Both the position numbers and the translations under genes were made by a program. From positions 744,001 through 808,000 of the forward strand of contig JASANH010000913.1 of NCBI GenBank assembly GCA_030248295.1: a stretch of 64,000 nucleotides of DNA, read 5' to 3'. Source of the DNA: Mesodorylaimus sp. YZB2_4. Taxonomy: Eukaryota > Nematoda > Enoplea > Dorylaimida > Dorylaimidae. Below the pieces are notes generated by a model. That model ran no database searches, was not told the origin of the DNA, and saw only the letters and a list, made by a program, of their open reading frames with translations. Positions 10,676 through 58,510 of this stretch are shown here, piece after piece. Position 1 is the first letter of the stretch. The number at the start of each line of letters is the position of its first letter.

Positions 10676-11581
10676 TCATCGATTGACGCCACCCAACGGC
10701 ACAACAGCATTTTTGTTAAAATGTCGTAGAAAAATATTTATAAAAGCGGCCTTAAAAGGTCGATTCAAGCAGAGATAAACAGTCAGGGGCGAGCAGCAAC
10801 TAATTAAGGAAAATATTGAACTGACTGGAGCCAATTTGACATTGACATCTAATGAGAAGTAAGACAAAGCGACAGTGGCGATGGCTGTGCCAGCATTGCA
10901 CACTAGATATATGGAAGACAGACATAACATTGACATGAACACGTCCAAATCCATGTGACGCCTCCATTCGTTTCGACGCGCTTCACCAAAAAATTTTATC
11001 TTCTTATAGTAATATAGTATTTTTATCGCGGTTACAGAGAAGATAATAAAAGTCAGTGCACTAATCGTATTATATTCGACAGATGTATAAAAAATAAAAC
11101 TTTCGTTAAAACTAGTAGCATATGTACAAACTGGCAAATATATATTTCGATATAAATTTATGAATGCTATTGGAAATTTAAAAAAACAGTAGCCCCATGA
11201 AATTATATTTAATATTATAGCATATTTTATATGACTTTTAGATCTGTGGAAGTTTGGATAAAATATGCACAAAAATCGATCGATCGACATGGCAAATGTA
11301 AACGTTTTAAAACCGATACCCATAAATAAGAGAGGATATTGCTTTAAAATACAATGAAACTTATCGGATACTTCAGGATTTCCAAAAACATGCGCTGAAT
11401 ATCTTTTCAAACCAGTGGCAAAATATGTTAGCGAAAAAATAATTTTTGCAGCACTATGAGACAATAAGACTACTTGACTTTTATTATAAAGAGACTTTGT
11501 GGAAAGAATTGTGAAAACCACTAAAAAATTTGTGAGGGCAGCGAATGGTGAGATAGTGATCCAGCATAAATGATTGGGTGC
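10676..11581 (-). CDS. Seven-transmembrane receptor, Srsx-like chemoreceptor (main exon; 5' exon not found)
   Basis: A rhodopsin-like receptor exon, probably a nematode Srsx-type chemosensory receptor. The exon opens after an acceptor (CCTAACAG) at 11582 and reads in phase 0 as APNHLCWITISPFAALTNFL and on, so TM1 is partly here. About 300 codons follow with seven hydrophobic segments. After TM3 comes SIDRFLCIFYP, the Srsx version of the DRY motif, and TM7 ends LTVYLCLNRPFKAAF. No ATG lies at the exon start; a first coding exon with the extreme N-terminus must lie above 11582, and I could not identify it. The C-terminal tail is short and basic. The ligand is unknown. Another rhodopsin-family branch is possible. 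Confidence 0.72.
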   Translation of the reverse strand, partial: APNHLCWITISPFAALTNFLVVFTILSTKSLYNKSQVVLLSHSAAKIIFSLTYFATGLKRYSAHVFGNPEVSDKFHCILKQYPLLFMGIGFKTFTFAMSIDRFLCIFYPNFHRSKSHIKYAIILNIISWGYCFFKFPIAFINLYRNIYLPVCTYATSFNESFIFYTSVEYNTISALTFIIFSVTAIKILYYYKKIKFFGEARRNEWRRHMDLDVFMSMLCLSSIYLVCNAGTAIATVALSYFSLDVNVKLAPVSSIFSLISCCSPLTVYLCLNRPFKAAFINIFLRHFNKNAVVPLGGVNR

Positions 11582-11600
11582 CTGTTAGGAAAGAATGATC

Positions 11601-38224: not shown

Positions 38225-39682
38225 AGCTGATCAGGTACCTGGCTCGACCCAGCCCTTTACTTGAAATTTCGGTTACGGCTGACCCGAAACAGATGAAATT
38301 CATTGAGATATAAACTTTGCATAATTCTGCCAAACATTTGGTGACTTTAGTGCAAAGGCGACTGTGTGAAGATATTTTAATATGCATCCAGTCTTTACAA
38401 AAAACACTGCTTACAGTCATAGTTATTGTGCTGGAAACTCGCTCCTGTCAAAAACTTTACTACTGATTGAGGAATGTATGAGGGCTTGACTTTTAAACGC
38501 AGTAAACTGCTTTGCAATGTGACATTAATGGCGAGCAAGGAAGTTATTATTGGTGCACAGAATAAATGACAGGCTTTTGCAACCAGGTATACTCAAGAAC
38601 TTACAGTACTTCTTCACAGTCAGGAGTCAAATGTGACTTGATAATACCTGTTAGAATTATCAAGTCCAACTCATGCTATGCTACTTCCATTCATTTATCA
38701 TCATATTTGCTAGAATGTTAATGAGAGCTCCCAGGACTGGCCAAAATTGCGTAAAATGTGGTTTCTGTAGCTAGTTATGTATGTTGGCGGCAAACGCGGA
38801 ATGCCAGCGCCGTGGCAGAGGCTAAAATGACTTCTGTCATTCTGTCGGAAATTGTAGAGGTCACTGTTGTAACAATGACTCGTTTCAGTCTTGTTTCACT
38901 CTGTAAAGAGAGTCGTTACCGAGAATAAGAGATCTCAAACTCTCTCTCAGTCACCAAGAATTGCTATATCCGACAGCTCGCTAATGGAGAGGTGCACTGC
39001 AGACTTCCCTGATTCTGACAAGTTTTCTCTTTTAATATTGCTTTATAGTAGCGAAAAGGGAGATCAAGAGCCAGTTTTGCGTAATTCGACCAAGAACTAT
39101 TGTTACAATGTCCTGGGTTTTTCACTCTCTGATCTGACCCTGAACTTGACCGACCCCTCAAAAAACTTTCTGACCTGACCTACGGCACTGACTCGGACAT
39201 TTATCAGATAAAAAAAAGATGCTTATAATCGGCAGCAGTAATTTTTATAGCAGAGCGTGCACAAACACATTTAATAAGAATGCCCAATCTACTATCTGTT
39301 TTCTTTGAGAATGTACACGCGGCCTATGGGGCAACGTGGAGAGCGTGTATATTCCCAAAGAGAACAGATTACAGGCAGAGACACGGTGGACCAACTTATA
39401 AACAAGAATACTACAACAGTAGAATTTCTGACAGCTCAGCCTGGCTTACTACATAAAGCCTGCTTTATTTTATTTTCACCGACCTTTACTGTGGATTATT
39501 TGATCTCATTGTCAAAAAAGTTCCTTTTCTGAAGTTGTTAGCACGCAACGCAGCATGTGGCATTTGCTGTTTATCTGTTAGCCGTGCGAGGAGCAGTAAT
39601 TTACCTTTGTGATTTTCTGACTTCGAAAGCACCGCAATCGGAAAAGTAAATTAACATTTTTCTTTCTTTTGCAAAAAGAATC
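38225..39682. other. Intergenic, no gene recognised
   Basis: Includes a TGACC/GACCTGA low-complexity tract at 39130-39185. The ORFs at 38891-39178 and 39305-39532 match no family I know. Confidence 0.4.
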
Positions 39683-40480
39683 ATGACTCTAATTTTTCGG
39701 ATCACATCACATCATTCGCGATTTCTTCGCTTTGCATTCCCCTCATCAAATTTGCGTCCAATAATTTCATTTTCAAACTATTCGTCAACCGATGCCTCTG
39801 CGTCTGTAATCGATGCTGAAAAACTAAAGCCAGTAAATTCTTCTTTAGATTTGACAACAAATTCAACAAAATTACAATTGAAAAAACGATCATTTAGTGA
39901 AGATGAAGAACGAAATTTCGGTGATCTGATTTATCGATCTACATTAATGAATAACGTGTATTGGTGCAAAACTCTATCCTTGTCTACTTCGATCACTGCA
40001 GTCATTCTTACACCAATCGTGATTAATATGGCCATGGAACAAGCCGTGGCTACGGGCGTATCGGCCGCCACTTCAATCGCTCTCTGGAGTTCATTCAGTT
40101 CGGCCTTCACATTCACGCCTTTATTACTCCATCAAATCACGAAACGATTCGTTCTCGAAATGTATTATAATTCGGATAAACAATTATTTACAGCCATTTT
40201 TTTCAATGTTCTTGTACGAAAAAGAGCTTTAACATTTGGATTAGACGATATACGAGCCGTCGATCCGGCGACCGCTCTTTTACATACGCATAAAATTGGT
40301 AAACATGCATTGCTTTTTGATCGGCAAGGTTATCGAGATGCAAATACAAGGAATTTGTTCGAATCGATGTTGGATCAAGTATTGGAAGAGAAAATGAACG
40401 AGAAAGACGACGACGATGATGGAAACGACGAACCAGCAAAGGCATCCACGGATCATCATAAAAGACAACAAGACCAATAA
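39683..40480 (+). CDS. TMEM70-like mitochondrial inner-membrane protein, single exon
   Basis: 265 codons, intronless. TMEM70 in other animals helps assemble ATP synthase and complex I in the inner mitochondrial membrane. Residues 1-25 are rich in Arg, Ser, His and hydrophobics with no acidic residue, as in a mitochondrial presequence. Then comes DLIYRSTLMNNVYWCKTLSL, equivalent to the family's G.LIY.G....V...K..S block. Two membrane segments, about 98-118 and 122-150, are joined by a short turn and end FTPLLLHQITKRFV (family: TPVLLHFITKGYV). A conserved YYNSDKQLFTAIFFN stretch follows. The acidic tail (EKDDDDDGNDE) is not a family hallmark. Length is close to human TMEM70 (260). It has no operon-like neighbour: TTTGC-rich DNA precedes and 3.6 kb of repeats follow. 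Confidence 0.82.
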   Translation: MTLIFRITSHHSRFLRFAFPSSNLRPIISFSNYSSTDASASVIDAEKLKPVNSSLDLTTNSTKLQLKKRSFSEDEERNFGDLIYRSTLMNNVYWCKTLSLSTSITAVILTPIVINMAMEQAVATGVSAATSIALWSSFSSAFTFTPLLLHQITKRFVLEMYYNSDKQLFTAIFFNVLVRKRALTFGLDDIRAVDPATALLHTHKIGKHALLFDRQGYRDANTRNLFESMLDQVLEEKMNEKDDDDDGNDEPAKASTDHHKRQQDQ

Positions 40481-44135: not shown

Positions 44136-47100
44136 ATGGCGAATCCTAATCAAACATTTTTTCTCTTTTTCACAATTTTTATTCCATTTTCCACCGGGTC
44201 CCCATGGTTTACACTCAACGATGAAGCAATACTAAGTGGACTGATGGGTTCTCCAAATTCAACTAATCCACGACTTGCTTGTAATAAAATTGGTGGTTTA
44301 AGAGAAAAACATAAAAAAATGTGTTATCAAAGTCCAGCAATTTTATTTGCTATTGGCGAAGGAAATCGAAGAACTTTGGAACATTTGGAAAAAGTTTTCG
44401 AAGAGGATAGATTACCTGCGAGTTTATTAATTTATAATTCAGTGTTTTCATTTAGAATTAGTGAAGGAAGTAAGTTGCTTTACAAATTTGAACTCCCGCT
44501 TTTTATGCTTATTGCAAAATGAAAATATTTTTATCCATTGAGGAAACCGCGTTGGATTGCGTAAGAAATCATGGCTATATACCTACTTAGTATTCTAAGG
44601 CTCCCTGAACGCTACATTTTCGTCAGCGTGATGTCGCATCCATGATCACACTGAGGTTTCAGCTGAGGCTGAGGCACACTGAGAAAGACAATGTGGGAAG
44701 AAAGCAAACCAGCGGTTGAGGTTAGACCCTGTCAGTCAACATGCAACACAAAATTAATTTGTAGGTTTTTTTACAAAAGGCACTGTTTGATCGGCAAGAA
44801 AACATTCGCGCACACAGTATGTTCGTGCTCGTGTTTAGTTGCTCTTACTGCCTGCCTTTGCATTCACAACTTAGCTAAAGAAACTTCGAAACCAAGCAGG
44901 GCAGCTACTCGACCATTCCCACTCCCCCTTCTTAATCTTTCTTCTCCCACGCTTTTTTTGCCTCGCGCCAGCGCTCACCTTATTGCAATGCTGGCGGAAG
45001 AATACCTGTGAGGCGCCAAATTCAAACTGATTTGCCCATTTTAGTGAATGAAGCGAAGTGTCGACGTCACTTCCTCATTTGTGCCTAAAAACCTTTAGCA
45101 ATTACTGTTTTTGCGATATCATTTCAAATAGAGGCCTCGGAAGCCCATTTTTTTTTGAATTTCAGCGTGATAGGGCCCGTTAGAGCATGCTGAACCAGTT
45201 TTATAGGCGTTCAGGGAGCCTTAGAATACTTAAGTATACAGCCATGTAAGAAATGGGAAAAGCGGGCTGTCAAAATTTATCTAAAATATCCACATTTTTC
45301 TTGATGACTTACTTCTGGGTCAGAAATGGGTTTCTGTAAGGTTCGACCCATGTGAAACATAGGTTGCCGAATTTCAATTTTTGGCCCGGTTTTTTATGTG
45401 GGAATTCGATGCACCCATGAGTGTAGATAGTGACGCAACAATGTCTTTTCGTGCACACTCGATTCTCACGGAATTATCGCAAAAAAACGTTTTTTTTAAA
45501 GTGCTCTGGCGATATTGGCATAACTCACTGACCTTTCGGTCTTTCTCGATTAACGACACATCACCGTGTTCGCAAGCGAACGAGGAATCGAAAACTTGTC
45601 GGATCGAAATGTGTCTATCTTTCACCTATCTCAAGATACTGGGCGCCAGAGTAGGAGGTCCCCTCCAAGTTGACCACTTTTAAACCTCCTGTTCGTTTAT
45701 GCAAACTGGGAGACGGAGCCTAAAATATGCCCAGTCCATCCAACTTTCAACGTGATCCCCCATCGTCTATATTTTAGCTTTACATTTGATATCCAAATAT
45801 GCAAAAAACTGCACCCAAATTCAAAGAATTTTTAGAAAAATCTAGTTTTTTGAAATCTTGCAAGATAGCAGCAGGAACTGGACATTTTTTTCGGAAAGAG
45901 CGTAAAAATGGCATCGATTGGTTTTTTCTTGGTTGAAATTCGACTTCTAATTGCGAAAACAGAGGGAAAGAAAGTAGGGGTCACCAAGTGCCAGGAGTAC
46001 GCACCTTTTAAATTTCCCGCTGCTTATGGACAAGAGTGCTGTTTGGGTTGCTTACTTTGAAAATCACCAGAAAATATTCGTTTTATTTCACTTTTCACGA
46101 CGTGTTTGTATGTTTGTACTAGAAAGTCTATTTTTCGTGAAAAAAAAGAGAAGTTGCAAATTTTTCCAGCTTTACAAAATTAGCAGCCGAAGCCGCACTC
46201 TTGTCAATAAGCAGCGGGAAATTCAAAAGGCGCGTACTTTCGGCACTTGGTGACTCCTACTTTCTTTCCATCTGTTTTCTCTATTAGGAGTCGAATTTCG
46301 CCTGAGAAAACTGATCGATGCTATTTTTGAAGCTCTCCTAGAATTCAAGTCTAGATTTATGAACTATCTCGCATTTTCGAAAATAGATTTTGCAGAAAAT
46401 TCCCTAAAGTTGAGTGCAGTTTCCTCGCATATTTGGATGTCAAATGTAAAGCTGAAGTGAAGACGATGTTGGGTCATGCTGAAAGCCGTATGGATAACAG
46501 GAGGTCTGAAAGTCGTCGATTCGGAGGGCACTCCTGACTCTGGCGCCCAATAGCTCGAGACAGGTGAAGGATTGAAACTATTCGCACGAACATTCGATTC
46601 CTCGTTCGTTAGCGAACACGCTGACGTGACGCAGATCGAGAAAGACCGGAAGGTCAGTGACTTATAGCTGATATCGCCGAAGCACCTTCAAGAAAACGTA
46701 TTTTAGGATAATTCCGTGAAAATCGAGTGTGCACAAAAAAGCATTGTTGCGTCACTATCACCACTCATGGGTGCATCAAATTCACACAGAAAAAATGGGA
46801 GTTAAAAATTTCGACTGAGTAACCCCTGGGTTGGCTCTTAAGAAAGCTTGTCTTAAGTACTGTATTTTCTGTAAATTGTCAATAATTTTCGCAATTTATT
46901 ACGTTGTAAGCAGTTTTCTGTGGAAATCTCTTGCAAGAATTTCTGAATGCAAGCAGAAAAGCACAAAATATTTCTGTATGTCATGCCATATTTTATCCAT
47001 AGCCAAGCCATAGCGCACTCGAGAGATAAAGGAAAAAACAGATTGACAATCATTTTTTACCCAGGCGGGAGTCGAACCCCTGCAAGTGCGACTTGACGTG

Positions 47101-47765
47101 AGACGTGGATGCCTAATAGTTGATACAAAAGACGAAGTAATTTTTAAAAATAATCAACTGTTATCAACTGTTGTTTCTTACTTGTCTATACAAAAAATTT
47201 TGTAAAATTTTATTGTAGTAGACAAAAAAGAAAGCGGTATAAATGTTGAGATTCATGATAAGTATGCACATTTTGGAAACAGCGTGAAACAAATTCAAAA
47301 AATCAATTATATGTATCATTTGAAAAAAAGTTTTTTCATTCAGGCAAAAGGGAAATCGTGTACTTGGCTTCAATTCGAACCTCGGCCATCACCCACGAGC
47401 TCGCTGTCACATGTTCGGACGGTCTGGCCGAAGATGCGTGCCCGTGCTATCGGCCACCAGCAGAGCAGTCCAATTTGGAGTTCGAAACAACACTCGGCCT
47501 TCCTTTAGTCCTGGACCAAGGATGTCCCTATGCATTGGCACATGCACAACGTATCGCCCTGGATTATATTCTCAACGACCCTGAAATCAGCTCTGATACG
47601 AGACAAATGATCAAAGAGCACGCCATCGCTGCTGTGAAATCGATCGAAGCGGGTTGGATAGATCCCGAAGAAGAATGGGAAAGAAAGTTGAGAGAATTTG
47701 AGACTGAACATAACGGGCAATTAAGTGAAGGATTTGGTGCCAGTTATGCACATGGTGAATTGTAG
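44136..47765 (+). CDS. Truncated, divergent Wnt-like secreted protein, 2 exons
   Basis: Exons 44136-44469 and 47344-47765 join in frame (A|GC = Ser) to 251 aa. Residues 1-21 are a signal peptide (FFLFFTIFIPFSTGS). The mature part follows the Wnt N-terminal order: CNKIGGLREKHKKMC (Wnt C..I.GL....LC), PAILFAIGEGNRRTLEHLEK, then SKREIVYLASIRTSAITHEL and VTCSDGLAEDACPC (Wnt RE.A...AI.SAGV.HA...ACS.G.L..C.C), DQGCPYALAHAQRI (Wnt GGCSDN...A..) and IKEHAIAAVKSIE (Wnt LHNNEAGR.AV). Cys of ECQ and WNC are both absent. Instead of the lipidated CHGVSGSC loop it ends with an acidic, Trp/Glu-rich tail and TAG. The 2.9 kb intron holds two foldbacks and a SINE. It could be a true short Wnt relative, a decaying Wnt gene, or one with unseen 3' exons. 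Confidence 0.65.
44570..45246. mobile_element. MITE with 40-bp inverted ends (Wnt-like gene intron)
   Basis: CATGGCTATATACCTACTTA then GTATTCTAAGGCTCCCTGAACG at 44570-44612; inverse CGTTCAGGGAGCCTTAGAAT then ACTTAAGTATACAGCCATG at 45208-45246. The interior is not self-complementary. It contains ORF 44691-45011 without recognisable product. Confidence 0.8.
45389..46797. mobile_element. 1.4-kb foldback element (Wnt-like gene intron)
   Basis: Arms 45389-46036 and 46195-46797 are inverted copies, diverged by many substitutions. Examples: GATGCACCCATGAGTG and AGTGACGCAACAATG against CATTGTTGCGTCACT and CACTCATGGGTGCATC; TCGCAAGCGAACGAGGAATC against GATTCCTCGTTCGTTAGCGA; GGTCACCAAGTGCC against GGCACTTGGTGAC. 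Loop about 160 bp. The divergence implies an old insertion. ORFs here are shadows. Confidence 0.82.
46979..47121 (-). repeat. tRNA-derived SINE, family A, copy 3
   Basis: On the plus strand it reads TTTTATCCATAGCCAAGCC, then CCCAGGCGGGAGTCGAACCC and a degenerate head. It lies in the Wnt-like gene intron, 220 bp before exon 2. Confidence 0.75.
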
Positions 47766-49536
47766 ATAGTAGCTCGCGTGACGGCAGGATCGGGCTGATC
47801 GTACAACGTCTTTTATAGTCTAAGCCTGGTAGAAAGGTTTATCCTGCATAGTATCGGCCAGTAAGACCTCCAACAACCCCTCAGGCATTCATTCCGCGCC
47901 TCTGAATGCCGAAACTACTCTGTGCCATGATGCGCCAGTCTGGCTGCTGGTCGAGTGCACCCAGTCCTAAGATGCCTACGCTGGCGAACAGTTCCACTGT
48001 CAATGGCGCAATAAAAACTCCAGTCAGCCCCATAGGATCCTTCACGGAGCACAACAATGCACGACGATGTTGTCTTACCCACAGACAAATCAGCAGAAAA
48101 ACCAAGCACCTGCCTCGGAGTCAACTCCTGGACTCTTCCAGTGTGGACCAAAGGAAATGACGACCGCCGAGGCCCACTGAAAGTGTGCTAATCGAATTGA
48201 GCTGACGCCTGGCCTGCAGCACTGGTCTGCTAAATACGAAGGGTGGCTCCACGCGAATTCAAACGGAATTTTATGTTGAAACGAATCGAGCGCGCCACGG
48301 CAAGGGTGCATTAATCTCACCCAGGGCCTATTCTTATACTCCCCTGGCTAACCAGCCAACTGCCTCAGCCACACCCAACAACGGTACTGTAGGCGCCCTC
48401 AAGAGGCAAAAGTCACAAGAAAATGAAGCGCAAAAATCTTAAAAAGTCCAAATATGCTGTATGTTTTAAGATATGGTGATGGCTTCTCCAATATCCAAAT
48501 TTTGCTAAAACAGCCGCGAAATTCAAATTCCCGCCGCCACAACGCAGACAGACGTTGTCTGCTAAAAGACACGAATATTCAGAGGCTAGAAGTTCTCTTT
48601 TGTTTTTAGCAATAGACCATTAAAGTCAGCAAAAATTTGAATTCCCGCGATTACGGTAGCTCGACTGCTTATGACAATTTGGCACCCGATCCGATTGTAC
48701 TATCGATCCAAATGAATAATTGAGATCATCGAGGGCGAGTGGAATTTGAAAATTCGTATTTCCATGATACAAAAGCAATTTTCCTCATGCTTTCATCGTC
48801 AATAACTTTAGCTTTAAATATTGAGCTTTGTCCGGTCAGCCGAAATTTGCATAAGATCGCGCACAGATCTGCTGGATCCTTGTTTTCTTGTTATACGCAG
48901 CGGAAGCGGGAATTACAAATTTAAAACTTTTGGCGCACGCTGAAAAGGACTATTGGAAATGAGGTGACTGTTTTGAGTAAGCTGGGTACTTCGACGAAAA
49001 AATACTTCATTCGTAAAATTCAAACTGCCATTTTGCCAGTTTACAAAAAGCAGGCCTGCCAACTCCGCGTATTTTCGTTTCTATGGGCTACTGTACCACG
49101 TCATATCGTATAAAGAAGCGCAGATAGTTTTCTCTGGGGAACTCTTTCAGTCAGAGCCACAAGCATGCTCGTCACTCGCTCAGTAGAATCAAGGATGTGG
49201 GTGGTTTTCATGTTTTATGCTGCGAGTCTGCTGATGACTGTCTGAATTTGCTGTGGGATGACGGCTGGGACATTTTTACATAGTTGACAACGGGCCATCC
49301 GCGATAAAATTTGAGTCGGCGTAAGATCCATGCTTCATGATTTGAATTTGTCATAAGCACCCTGTACTTTGCGGCAAACGTGCTACCGTACGCTCGAATC
49401 AAGACGCTGCTCCGCTGCGGAGTCAGTGAAGGGGTGAGTCATCCAGAATTTTCAGGCTCAGTTCTCTTTTATTCGAACTTGTTTTGGAAAGGAAATATCG
49501 AAAAAGAATATCAAGAAAGTTAGAGAATAGTTTGTA
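47766..49536. other. Intergenic; searched for missing Wnt exons, none seen
   Basis: I looked by eye for a CHGVSGSC-like block or other cysteine-rich Wnt C-terminal exons and found none. It contains AAATTCAAATTCCCGCCG (48522) and TTTGAATTCCCGCG (48637) words. ORFs at 47881-48320 on both strands are overlapping and unconvincing. Confidence 0.45.
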
Positions 49537-52500
49537 ATGGCGCATGCTGTTGGTTTGAAGCATGTGGTTGGCAGAAGTAAGTTTTTTGTAAGAGCGGACC
49601 TATCACTGTCCCCTGATATTTTCCTTATCGTTGAACTAACATCTTTCTGTTCCCGATTGAAAAATTTAAAAATGCTCCTGTACAGCAAAAGAATTCGTCT
49701 AGTCTCTCGACTTTAGCGCTATTCTAATAAATATTTGGTCAAATCGCGACTCGTTCCGTCATAATTCTGAAGACGATACCAAAATATCAGTTTTGACTAA
49801 AAGTTACCTCGATACCAACAAATATTTTTGCGCAAGCTAAAATAAGATTGCGAGATTTTTTGGTTTGTTTTTCCTTGACTTCTGCTTTTCTCATTTGTTC
49901 GCGGAAACACTTGCGTGCTAAATTGAGTTCATAATTTTGAAATTTTCATCGGCACTTGCGTTTTAAAAAGGACGGAAAAAAATTATTCGAGCCCCGCCAG
50001 GACATAGAATGCAGTAAAATGAATTAAACTCTAAGTTTCCAAAGAAATTTTTTTAAAACTGGACCCTATCAGAAACCATGCTCATGCGCAGGAGAACATT
50101 GCTTTTGCATTTTTGCGCGCCCAGTCACTTTCATTTGCATAACAGCAGATCATGCTCGAAGTGAGTAATCACACACATCATGTGGCCATAGACAATGGCC
50201 TCGGCAACTTGATATATTCACTGAAGGGGAAAAAGAAAACATGTTTCAGGAATTCTGGACGATGTTATCAAACCGATGAAGAAAACCACGAAACCAGCGA
50301 CATGGAATGTTTTAGTGGTTGATAAAACAGCAATGCGAGTCATTAGCGCTTGTTGTCGAATGCACGATATTATGGACGAGGGAATAACGAGTAAGAGCAC
50401 TTGAATAGTTCATGATAAAATTTAAAAGGGAATATCTGAAACATAATTTTATCAAATTCCGCTGGGTGATTCTTTAGTAAAATTTTCTCGATAAATGACA
50501 TATAGCCATCTGAAAAGAGGTACAAATAAGTAAAAATAACACCCTGCCTGTAACCGAATTTTACCGCATGCGTTTTAAAATTTCTGACCAATCAGAGAGC
50601 GCGAAGAAAAAATTAGCGAGACATTTCTAGTTTAACAAGTTTTTTGTTTTAGTCGTTGAAGATTTAAACAAATGTCGAGAGCCCTTGAATCTCGATGGGA
50701 TATATTTAATTACACCAACAAAGGAATCGATCGAAAGACTAATGGCTGATTTTCCGAATGTGAATAAACGTCAATACAAAGCTGCGCACGTCTTCTTCAT
50801 CGAAGCGTGTCCCGATGAGTTGTTTAATCAATTGTCGCGTAGTCACGCATCGAAACACATCCAAACATTGAAAGAGATTAATATCGCTTTTACGCCTTAT
50901 GAATCTCAGGTAAGAGTGGCGCGGTCTTGGTGACCAGTGCCATGAATAGCATAGATCCATGATGGATAGCAGCTTCAGTATGTGGTCGATGCCCTTTGAT
51001 ACTCTGTAGCTTAATATGAGTACATATTGAACTACAGAGCTCAATATGTAGTCGTAATGAACCATGTGCCGAGCCGTGATGGCATATGCGCACCAGGGTT
51101 GTTCACCGTGGTCGCTCGCTAAGAGTGGTAATGTGCGCGTGAGGTATGGTCAAAACAACGCCCATAATAATGATGTAGTAATGACATTAGTCAACTTGAT
51201 TATGCTTTAAGCAGCGGTTTAGATCGACGACTTCCATATTTTGTGATCTCAACTTTTATCCCTCACTTTCTTCCTTTCAGATCACAGTTAAAAATGTTGG
51301 TCTTTTGGAAGAATAAAGATTAAACATTAAGTTTACATAAATCTTCAGGATTTCTCAAATTTTGATGTCAATAACTTCTCGACCTAATTAAAAAAGAGCT
51401 TTTTTTAAACGGCCTTCCCCGAATCCCTCGAAATATGCACTCGTTTTATCGATTGATACTTGCATTGTGTTTTCAGGTGTTTTCCTTGGACAGTCCGGAT
51501 ACTTTTCAATACTATTACAGTCAGAGTAAGCAGCCGGGATTCACAGCCAATTTGGAGCGTATCGCTGAACAAATTGCCACCTTGTGTGCTACATTGGGCG
51601 AGTACCCGAGTGTACGCTATCGATCCGACTTCGACCGTAATGTCGAGTTGGCTCATTTGGTGCAACAGAAATTGGACGCGTACAAGGCTGACGATGCGAC
51701 CATGGGTCAAGTAGGAATGCTAGTTTCCTGTTTTTGTTGGGCGAGTATGGACGTATGTATGTATATGTATTATATAACGATATATATAATGCATATGCAT
51801 ATATGTGAATAATATGGTATATAAACCTGCATGTATATATACATGTACATTTATGCATGAAATATATGCATATATACATGTATATAAATATATACATGCA
51901 TGTGTATATATATACACATATAAAGTCACAGTCACGGAGACTAAAACAGTCACAGCTCTTGCCCTAAACTCCTTCTCAATCAAGGAATCAATCGCGGTAC
52001 ATCAGGATACTCAGCTACTCGTGAGAAAGCAGCCGTTACAGATCTTATTCAGAGTTTACACTGAAAATTTTGCTACCGTAAGACTGAACCTGAGTATTGT
52101 TACGGCCTCTGGTAGTGAAATCACAATGTAAAGTGAAGCCTAGTGTAAATAAGATCTGTGGCGATTGCTTTCTCACGCATATGACGCCTTTGAGATCATG
52201 AATACTTTGCTGTTCCACCGCCCCCATTGTAGTTATGTCATGGGCTGAACTAAAGGACACAGTAGCATTTTCTCGCACTAGGGTTCTGAAAAAGCTCGAT
52301 CCCAATTACTGATCCTTGATCGCGGTTTCGACGCAATTTCGCCCTTATTGCATGAATTGACATTCCAAGCAATGGTTTATGACTTATTGGAAATAGAAAA
52401 CGATGTTTTCACATATGAGACCGGATCAAGCGATGTGGCCTGCGAAAAAGAAGTATTGCTGGACGAGAATGACGCATTGTGGACCAAGTTGCGCCATCAG

Positions 52501-55223
52501 CATATCGCTGTTGTGTCACAGTAAGTGCGTGTCCATCAGTACTTTGGATCATGCAGTCTATGCGGTTGATGTAATGACAACCACCACCACCTGCAGCTGA
52601 GGCTACGATACACACAGCTATCATCAGATATCGCCCTTGAACAGCTGGGCCTGGCCTGTAGGCGTCTGCCTTCCGCTGCAGATGCACTTCCCGGCCGGTG
52701 TTCGAGTCGCGGCCTAATAAGTTTTTTGCTAGCTGGAGGCCAGCATCGGCCGATCCACCAATCCGGGGGGGATCGGTTCCCGATACGATTCAACTGCTGG
52801 ATCGGCCAGAATGTTTTTCGCGCTTTATCTGCTGGGAAATGATAAAGTGTGACGAACTTTAACAAGAAAATGCCGTTTTTCGCTGAAATCAGCATCTAAT
52901 CCCACTTTAGGTGCTGCTTATCTTTCCTGTGTCCCTTGGAGTGGTCTAACAGAGAGTGACATCAAATAGGGCAGGTTGGTGAGGCGCAGTGCCCATCTAT
53001 CTTCGGCCGCCCTGTCTTCTATTTTTTGAAGCGGATCGGCCAGATCGGATCGGGATCGGGGCGTTCAATCAAGACCCTGGATCGGATTAGGATCGAGATC
53101 CAGGCCTAGGGTCGAATCGGTCGATGCTGGGCTGGAGGCCACAAGAACGGCAGAATTAGGTTGTCACTCATGAGGTATATCTCACTTGACAAAAGAAGGC
53201 TCAGTATTTCCTACCTGCCGAAATACATGGCCAATATTTTCCTTCTTTGAAGTATGGTGTCAGTACTCAGTCATGATTCAATCTATTGCTGGAATTTTCC
53301 ACAAAAAATCGTCAGTGTCCATCACTGATTAAGAACCAGTATATCTCACCTGTTGAAATCTGCCACAATTTTGGTTATATCCTTCAATTTCTTATTATCT
53401 CTCCACTTCAGGGAAGTCACAAGTTGTCTGAAGAGATTTATGAAAGATAATGTTCGCGGCTCTGCTGATACGACCAAAATCAAAGATTTATCAAATTTGA
53501 TTAAGAAAATGCCACAGTTTCAAAAAGAATTGAATAACTATAGCACTCACTTGAACTTGGCTGAAAAGTGCATGCAGCGCTTCCAAACCGGTGTGGACAA
53601 GCTGTGTAAAGTTGAACAGGTTTGTGATTTCAGTTCTGGGAGGGTAGGTAATGAGGGATAATGTGCTTGTAGGATCTGGCTATGGGTGTGGACTCGACTG
53701 GAGAGCGGGTCAAGGATGGTGTGAAACTGCTGACACCCTTGTTGATCGAACCAGCTGTGGACGAATATGATAAAATCCGATTGATCCTCCTGCATATTTT
53801 GACAAAGAATGGTATGCAAACTATTTTTTGATACGTTATCAGAGAGAGGTGATGGGGACTGCGAAGAAATGACTGCCATATTTTGATAAAGTGTGGTGTG
53901 ATATCACAGTAGCATCGACTTATCAGCTTATCAATGATGTGCCAATAATTTTATAACTGATAGCAGAAGGCATTTTTTAAATCTTGCCAGCCAAATGGTC
54001 TTATCCTTTGCTAATGATAAGCTGATTTCAGCCACTGTGATGCAACTTTTCAGGCATCCCAGAAGAAAACTTGGGTCGGTTGCTGCAACACGCCAATATT
54101 CCAAGCGCTGATAAGCCTATGATAACCAACTTGGCCAATTTGGGCCTGAATGTACTGTCGGATCAGCCAAAAAAGAAGACGTGGCAGCCGAATCGCAAAG
54201 AACGCGTTTCGGAACACACGTATCAAATGTCCCGTTGGACACCAGTTATTAAAGATTTGATGGAGGACTGCATTGATGAGAAACTAGATCTGAGACATTT
54301 CCCATTTTTGTCCTCGGCTCCAAAATCTGGCGGGGACGATGGATTCCGGGCTGCTTCCAGGTTTGTGGTGTCTTGCATGGGTCGGCTGAACAGTCGAAAA
54401 GGGCGTGCCTATCCTTGATTTCCTACCTTTTTTTAAAGGGTGCCTGAACTAATCGTAAATAGAGCAAAAATTGTGAAAATTCAAATTTTAAAAATGGCGG
54501 GAATTTACGGATTAGCTTTGCTGAATCCAGCGTTTTCCCATACATCGAATAGGATTAGGTTTTGGTGATGTGTGTACGAGAATGCACAAAAATGTGACCA
54601 CTAGTGGCAAGAACTTGATTATATTTTTCAGTGCACGTTATGGGCAATGGCACAAGGAGCGTAGTCAGCAAGTGCAGAAGAGTGGGCCTCGTCTTATCGT
54701 GTTTGTGGTTGGTGGTGTCGCATTTTCTGAGATCCGGTGCGCTTACGAGGTGACCAAAGATCGAAGACCGTGGGAAGTCATAATTGGTGAGTAGGACTTT
54801 TCGATTCTGCTGAAAGTTTTAAAAGGTGAGAAATACCTGATTGTCGCAAAGGAAACTTCTGTTTATTCGTTAGTAGGTCCGCAAAAATCTACAGTACAGC
54901 AGATAGGTTTTTAATTAGTGAGAAATACTTTTTAATTGGGGAGGACTACTGCAACGATCCGACAAAGCATCCATGTTTCAACGAGTGATAAATACTTCAA
55001 GCAAAGTGGATTAGGAGGCGGAGCTAAGAACGAAGTGACCAATAGGAAAGCTGCATAATCTAGTTCCAGAGACATACATTTGCAAGCAGCAGAAAAACGA
55101 AAAATATAATCATAAATTTGTCTTCCTTTTCTTTTAGGTTCGGACCAAATTATTACACCACGCAAGTTTCTTGTCAGTCTATCGAAACTGGCACAACCGG
55201 CATATAATCGCCAGGAAGTGTAA
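49537..55223 (+). CDS. unc-18: UNC-18 / Munc18-1 (STXBP1) syntaxin-binding SM protein, 10 exons
   Basis: Sec1/Munc18 protein that binds syntaxin and SNARE complexes for synaptic vesicle fusion. Exons: 49537-49576, 50250-50390, 50653-50909, 51477-51710, 52282-52520, 53412-53619, 53673-53811, 54054-54360, 54632-54786 and 55138-55223; all GT/AG and in frame, 601 aa against about 590-600 for the family. The start reads [14 protein letters not shown] with exon 2 [11 protein letters not shown], matching the SM N-terminus. Diagnostic blocks: [162 protein letters not shown]. It is intact and closest to UNC-18/STXBP1 rather than Sly1, Vps33 or Vps45. The largest intron is 891 bp; intron 4 has a TA microsatellite. 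Confidence 0.96.
51745..51935. repeat. TATATACATG microsatellite-like tract in unc-18 intron 4
   Basis: Alternating TATATA, ATACATG and ATGCATAT words over about 190 bp. ORFs on both strands here (Tyr/Ile-rich) are artefacts of this tract. Confidence 0.8.
52640..53125. repeat. tRNA-like fragment and GGATCG low-complexity in unc-18 intron 5
   Basis: GGCCTGTAGGCGTCTGCCTT ... GGTGTTCGAGTCGCGGCC at about 52650-52712 resembles a tRNA-type SINE. GGATCGGCC/GATCGGGATCGG words follow at 52740-52810 and 53033-53125. Confidence 0.5.
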
Positions 55224-57342: not shown

Positions 57343-57532
57343 AAAATCGGAACTCGAGTCACTGTCACGAACTTTTTCAGACAGGAAATTAAAAAATAAG
57401 CCTGTTTGCCAAATGTTTTTTAGACTCTTAGCGCGCTTCAGCTATTGTCTGAAATAAATGGGTACGATTATTGAATGAACTGCCTCGGACTGTTGTGAAG
57501 AGGGTTCAATGTTCATGTTTTACCACATCACA

Positions 57533-58390
57533 GGGATATGGATATCCATGTGATGATATGGATATCCATGTGATGATATATATATCCATGTGATGATATG
57601 GACATCCATGTGATGATATGGATATCCATGTGATGATATGGATATCCATGTGATGATATGGATATCCATGTGATGATATGGATATCCATGTGATGATATG
57701 GATATCCATGTGATGATATATATATCCATGTGATGATATGGACATCCATGTGATGATATGGATATCCATGTGATGATATGGATATCCATGTGATGATATG
57801 GATATCCATGTGATGATATGGATATCCATGTGATGATATGGATATCCATGTGATGATATGGATATCCATGTGATGATATGGATATCCATGTGATGATATG
57901 GATATCCATGTGATGATATGGATATCCATGTGATGATATGGATATCCATGTGATGATATGGATATCCATGTGATGATATGGATATCCATGTGATGATATG
58001 GATATCCATGTGATGATATGGATATCCATGTGATGATATGGATATCCATGTGATGATATGGATATCCATGTGATGATATGGATATCCATGTGATGATATG
58101 GATATCCATGTGATGATATGGATATCCATGGCCAGATATGGATATCCATGTGATGATATGGATATCCATGTGATGATATGGATATCCATGTGATGATATG
58201 GATATCCATGTGATGATATGGATATCCATGTGATGATATGGATATCCATGTGATGATATGGATATCCATGTGATGATATGGATATCCATGTGATGATATG
58301 GATATCCATGTGATGATATGGATATCCATGTGATGATATGGATATCCATGTGATGATATGGATATCCATGTGATGATATGGATATCCATA
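57533..58390. repeat. 20-bp minisatellite, about 43 units
   Basis: Tandem units of GATATCCATGTGATGATATG, almost invariant. Variants: TATATCCATG at about 57580 and 57720, GACATCCATG at about 57600 and 57740, and one GATATCCATGGCCAGATATG at about 58121-58140. The variant pair recurs exactly 140 bp (7 units) apart. Because 20 is not a multiple of 3, all three minus frames stay open as long repetitive ORFs of 273-298 codons; these are not genes. A degenerate tail of ATATCC/GATATGAA words runs on to about 58510. Confidence 0.97.
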
Positions 58391-58510
58391 TCTATATCCG
58401 ATGAATGAATATTCATTTCTTTCAGGATATGAATTTCAATATCATATCTTTCTTCTGGGAGCCGCGATATGCATTTGAGATATGAATTCTAATATCCTGC
58501 GGAAATCCAT

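Follow-up and report, generated by a model that had tools for sequence, protein, structure and literature searches.

The window analysed here is a stretch of 64,000 nucleotides that is free of N and lies within an 856 kb contig. It contains a two-exon gene related to the Wnt family (hereafter the window gene), the spliced product of which is 251 amino acids long with its stop codon at 47763-47765. The following features were noted in the window.

44136..44469, + strand: exon 1, 111 full codons and one further base; C49/C63 and L84/A95, with a signal-peptide-like start
44470..47343, + strand: intron, 2874 bp, GT-AG, phase 1, at the Wnt-conserved position
47344..47642, + strand: Wnt-homologous part of exon 2, with KREIVYLASIRTSAITHEL, CSDGLAEDACPC and the GC helix to HAIAAVKS; cysteines 135, 144, 146 and 172
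47643..47765, + strand: acidic tail of exon 2, 40 codons plus stop, past the point where the intron-2 donor was lost; without secure homology
48010..48015, + strand: AATAAA, a possible poly(A) signal 245 nt 3' of the stop (consensus match only)
39650-40480, + strand: TMEM70-family ORF, upstream neighbour of the window gene
50631-54418, + strand: multi-exon Sec1-family gene, downstream neighbour of the window gene
10679-11584, - strand: Srsx chemoreceptor ORF, 302 aa, E 3e-11
57506-58488, - strand: long repeat of the HHMDIHIITWIS type, with three frames open

The donor of the window gene reads GAA/GTAAGT and the acceptor TTCATTCAG/GC, where the slash marks the junction. The donor scores 8.2, and 16 donors of the other Wnt genes of the same genome span 4.2-12.0 when scored leave-one-out. 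Exon 1 begins with a stretch that is signal-peptide-like by hydropathy alone (peak 2.16 at residues 7-17). The four Wnt N-terminal motifs that had been quoted in the first-pass annotation are all found in the spliced protein. A single-sequence fold of exon 2 alone was of low confidence, with a mean pLDDT of 46.6 and a pTM of 0.28. The intron is enlarged by a 1.4-kb fold-back element at 45390-46795, the arms of which are 78-86% complementary, and an apparent 0.7-kb terminal-inverted-repeat element, seen by eye only, is present near 44571-45250 of the same intron (44470-47343).

Wnt homology and the Wnt set of the genome

The first-pass annotation had read the gene as a secreted protein made of the Wnt N-terminal domain alone and had proposed an HMM search with the Wnt family profile PF00110. 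In that search the spliced protein scored 35.8 bits (E 8.3e-9, profile positions 2-146 of 305), which is above the curated cut-off of 20.3 bits. When the exons were taken separately, exon 2 gave 15.4 bits and exon 1 gave no match. Because neither exon by itself reaches the Pfam cut-off, a PF00110 scan of the genome (E<=0.001) returned 31 matches with none inside the window. In a phmmer search of the PDB, Wnt-7a was the best match (E 7e-9) and Wnt-5a was also matched (E 1e-4). Going by the Pfam and PDB scores, the match to Wnt is therefore well above chance. The gap-free alignment from the GC helix to HAIAAVKS is itself profile-supported, with 8.3 bits that none of 2000 shuffles equalled.

Gene structure points in the same direction. 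Intron 1 of the window gene matches the other Wnt loci of the genome in position and phase, and in most of those loci it is a phase 1 intron lying directly before R/K-E residues. An intron at this shared position and phase argues for a true gene copy and against a chance ORF or a retrocopy; judged from sequence, the window gene is a real copy of a Wnt gene. Its N-domain shows 14-24% identity to the other Wnt N-domains, the highest aligned identity (23-24%) being to the loci C115 and C33_177k. In an IQ-TREE tree the protein was placed in no Wnt subfamily and had an end branch of 10. When the full 251 residues were used as query against the genome, the gene itself and one weak exon on C54 (E 0.1) were returned, and a second copy was not seen.

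Nine other Wnt loci are present in the genome (145 Mb, 1067 contigs), all of them with CHG[VL]S and C-terminal profile matches, the PF00110 matches of the C93 and C115 Wnts stopping at profile positions 280-281 of 305. These two form a close pair with 73% N-domain identity, and on C3 (1599326-1604557) two further Wnt loci are arranged head to head, their nearest matched exons being about 2.3 kb apart. For a nematode, a set of nine loci in addition to the window gene would be large when compared with the five Wnts that the available text of PMC3003278 gives for C. elegans.

The 3' end of the gene

Wnts are two-domain ligands, the function of which needs the thumb lipid and the C-terminal finger. 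In eight of the nine other Wnt loci intron 2 has a phase 0 donor straight after AGRK-like residues, and in the ninth the donor, GTACGT, lies one codon further 3'. The donor after the AGRK-like residues is absent from the window gene. It had been claimed in the first-pass annotation that the stop comes right after the helix; this needs correction, as 40 residues intervene between the usual intron-2 donor point and the stop. The related claim that the protein is without lipidated serine and C-terminal domain held: the CHGVSGSC thumb, the acylated serine, the linker and the cysteine-rich C-terminal domain are all absent from the protein, and no such exon was found downstream. For this search an HMM was built from the nine other Wnts and run with hmmsearch --max against six-frame ORFs of at least 15 aa. 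It recovered only the two exons of the window gene (E 7e-6 and 0.011), the next best match having an E of 3.6, and no thumb or C-terminal exon was detected in the window, in 20 kb downstream or in 10 kb upstream; for the final 28 kb of the contig, coverage came from the PF00110 scan alone. In that scan the Wnt at C33:177k, which has many exons, showed C-terminal exons matching with E 4e-9 to 5e-13. The first Sec1-family ORF downstream begins at 50631 on the same strand, which leaves about 2.9 kb after the window gene.

The acidic tail has a GC3 of 0.30, and its codons are indistinguishable from non-coding sequence (0.12; synonymous-only 0.44). The low GC3 is compatible with an intronic origin, without proving it. 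A GT is present at 47755 (ATG/GTGAAT), within the third-to-last sense codon, and as a donor it scores 5.3, higher than 3 of the 16 donors of the other Wnts (leave-one-out).

Two placements of the tail on known parts of a Wnt compete with each other. One MAFFT alignment set IKEHAIAAVKSIEAGW of the tail on CKCHGVSGSCELKTCW of the thumb. The ungapped score of this placement was equalled by 11 of 5000 shuffles, and with windows taken over the whole region it was equalled by 6 of 200 shuffles at 16 residues and by 1 of 200 at 24 residues. When the windows lay within the GC-AGRK region, the tail fell on the last helix, and there none of 200 shuffles was equal at either 24 or 32 residues. Profile tests for a thumb in the tail gave shuffles at least as good as the real sequence in 1122 of 5000 cases with an HMM of the part after intron 2 and in 1170 of 5000 with a thumb HMM. 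The tail as a cysteine-free thumb was dropped as a candidate, having no profile support and a competing placement on the last helix. The thumb reading was not adopted because other windows favour the last helix, and also because shuffling breaks the helix periodicity. Read as a duplicate of the last helix, the tail scores 2.6 bits, with 7 of 2000 shuffles as good, and at the DNA level the two showed no similarity (485 of 500 shuffles were at least as good); this hints, weakly, that the tail could be such a copy. Since the thumb is unsupported by the HMMs and the two placements are in conflict, no homology was assigned to the tail.

Cysteines and signs of constraint

The protein has cysteines at 49, 63, 135, 144, 146 and 172 and thus retains six of the eight N-domain cysteines, C49 and C63 being the first Wnt pair. 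In Wnt structures the ECQ cysteine pairs with the WNC cysteine. The first-pass annotation had reported that both of these are replaced while the neighbouring cysteines remain, and the alignment agrees, as it gives Leu84 and Ala95 at the two places, with a spacing of 11 residues (the numbering was done by hand). What remains would, by homology, be three of the four cysteine pairs of the Wnt N-domain, with bridges expected at 49-63, 135-144 and 146-172. It had also been inferred that the loss of both partners of one bridge reflects selection, and this did not hold in that form. The chance that two cysteines lost among eight (four pairs) are partners is 4/28, that is 1/7, and therefore partner loss is on its own weak evidence of selection. 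It lends mild support to a folded protein.

Neutral decay was simulated with substitutions only, starting from eight of the nine other Wnt N-domains and running until the score fell to 47 bits or less; the simulation is free of indels and tests only full neutrality since a typical Wnt. Stop-free copies made up 8 of 800, and six or more cysteines were kept in 69 of 800. When C33_177k, in its completed form, and C3b were the starting sequences, 6 of 400 copies were stop-free and 2 of 400 were stop-free with at most two cysteines lost. At most two cysteines were lost in 100 of these 400 copies whatever their frame, and therefore cysteine retention alone is not strong evidence.

In exon 1, GC3 is 0.19 with GC1 at 0.40 and GC2 at 0.41 (Fisher 7e-5), and in the homologous codons 47-111 GC3 is 0.12 (p 1e-4). 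Among 3424 overlapping stretches assumed to be non-coding, none was as strongly skewed as exon 1. The exon pieces of the other Wnts (n=34) have a GC3 of 0.41-0.71, and the homologous part of exon 2 has 0.54 as against 0.19 in exon 1, an unusual contrast inside one gene. In exon 1 GC3 has dropped without GC1 and GC2 following, and this therefore fits selection on the protein with drift at the silent sites. A codon-usage score trained on the other Wnts points the other way for exon 1, which falls below the non-coding background (96% of non-coding stretches score as high); by the same score the homologous part of exon 2 is coding-like (3% score as high). The intact frame and the codon-position signature are better signs of constraint than the loss of the cysteine pair.

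Origin and possible role of the encoded protein

The window protein resembles the Wnt family (PF00110) in the order of its motifs and in the position and phase of intron 1, and it may do so in its start, which looks like a signal peptide by hydropathy. It differs from the family in being without the ECQ/WNC pair, the thumb with its acylated serine, the linker and the cysteine-rich C-terminal domain. We put at close to an even chance, though just short of it, that the two-exon, Wnt-derived gene encodes a non-lipidated, stand-alone secreted Wnt N-domain. The fuller proposal, that this domain arose by the loss of a splice donor and has been selected for a role outside Frizzled binding, is offered more tentatively. 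An old Wnt paralogue would have lost the donor of intron 2, or else intron 2 together with everything 3' of it. By the simplest route, donor loss would have led to read-through into the former intron and to an early stop, and the downstream exons, having become useless, would then have been lost. The product would be the helical N-terminal domain of a Wnt, secreted and disulfide-bonded, from which the acylated thumb hairpin, the linker and the C-terminal domain are all missing. If expressed, it could leave the cell by way of its putative signal peptide without acylation by Porcupine and without Wntless, acylation being unlikely because the serine is missing. It would presumably not bind Frizzled in the manner of a Wnt, because both Frizzled contacts are missing, and it can probably no longer signal as a Wnt. 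It could instead work outside the cell as a domain on its own, either with a different partner or in a structural role. Counting against this reading are the poor codon score of exon 1 and the non-coding-like codons of the tail, the GT at 47755, the short-window placements of the tail on thumb or last helix, the low identity to other Wnt N-domains, the failure of the tree to place the protein and the low-confidence fold of exon 2.

Pieces of other Wnts give some guidance here. Drosophila WntD itself is a full-length protein. It is a non-lipidated Wnt, the N-terminal region of which has been solved as a separate piece, going by the available text of PMC7458405 (PDB 4krr), and the match between that fragment and the window protein is weak (E 0.2). 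According to the available part of PMC4068752, residues 1-276 of mouse Wnt3a are secreted from HEK293T cells and moderately inhibit full-length Wnt3a in a reporter assay; the same text cites further inhibitory Wnt N-terminal domains, and the 1-276 piece contains the lipid-bearing Ser209 and residues downstream of it. Like Wnt3a 1-276 and the N-terminal domain of fly Wg (Wg-NTD), the window protein is a Wnt N-domain without the C-terminal domain. Unlike them it is encoded as such by a gene, those pieces being products of truncation or of a protease, and it ends earlier. The acylated serine of Wg also lies within residues 1-245. Flies expressing Wg-NTD (1-245) had no phenotype, and their Wg effectors were unchanged, as far as the available text of PMC6646336 goes. 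A narrow search of titles and abstracts in the open-access literature found no natural Wnt gene coding for the N-domain only, and such a gene is not mentioned in the available portions of PMC3890508, PMC3276606 and PMC11633749.

The main rival to a stand-alone domain is decay, which we consider unlikely though still to be taken seriously: a fast-evolving Wnt would recently have lost its C-terminal exons, and the two exons would be a relic with the frame still unbroken. It agrees with this that the gene has the lowest-scoring Wnt N-domain of the genome, at 41-49 bits as compared with 113-199 for the others (the N-domain of C33_177k scores 124 when complete and 87 without its middle exon), that exon 1 is AT-rich with a poor codon score, that the intron is full of transposon-like inverted repeats and that the intron-2 donor is gone. 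However, 251 codons are open, the intron position and phase are conserved with usable splice sites, and GC3 of exon 1 is low without a parallel fall in GC1 and GC2. The six remaining cysteines also speak against decay by the first simulation, but less so by the second. A longer gene is improbable. In that case exon 2 would be spliced at least partly, for example at 47755, to 3' exons that were missed, or the tail would be a degenerate thumb. The score of the GT at 47755 and the few shuffles that equal the MAFFT placement would suit such a gene, but the thumb is without profile support, other windows move the tail to the last helix, and the periodicity of a helix is broken in the shuffles. A thumb in the tail would moreover retain none of the four thumb cysteines and no serine, and a C-terminal-like exon was not found in the window or in the next 20 kb, with the Sec1 ORF beginning so close by.

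Still more doubtful is a natural Wnt antagonist, a secreted N-domain that would occupy a receptor, a co-receptor or a carrier in competition with full-length Wnts. The inhibition by Wnt3a 1-276 described in PMC4068752 and the presence of Frizzled and Wntless matches in the genome are in its favour. The Wnt3a fragment, however, has Ser209 and residues beyond it, as far as that text goes, and the window protein ends before the thumb, linker and C-terminal domain; Wg-NTD, for its part, left flies and Wg effectors unaltered in what PMC6646336 describes. The suggestion of a Wnt decoy in the first-pass annotation is thereby weakened. A Frizzled decoy in particular appears unlikely, because the protein has neither of the two Frizzled contacts and no linker. 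A stand-alone domain with a different partner is favoured over a decoy because the Wnt3a piece keeps Ser209, Wg-NTD is without phenotype and WntD is non-lipidated, in so far as the available texts of these papers describe them. If a stand-alone N-domain is indeed what the gene encodes, the two halves of a Wnt could part in evolution, and an N-domain-only gene in a worm that has nine further Wnt loci would offer a natural experiment on what the isolated domain does and on a possible regulation of signalling by Wnt pieces that carry no lipid.

Some further observations concern the assembly as a whole. Transthyretin-like and Srsx families mark nematodes, and the genome has 27 transthyretin-like matches (PF01060) and, among the matches listed, 150 to Srsx, so that it probably belongs to a nematode. 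COX1 reads with mitochondrial code 5. There are 15 COX1 matches on 11 contigs (C73, C273, C741, C47 and others), and several of them have stops besides TGA; the copies with extra stops are mitochondrial insertions or misjoins.
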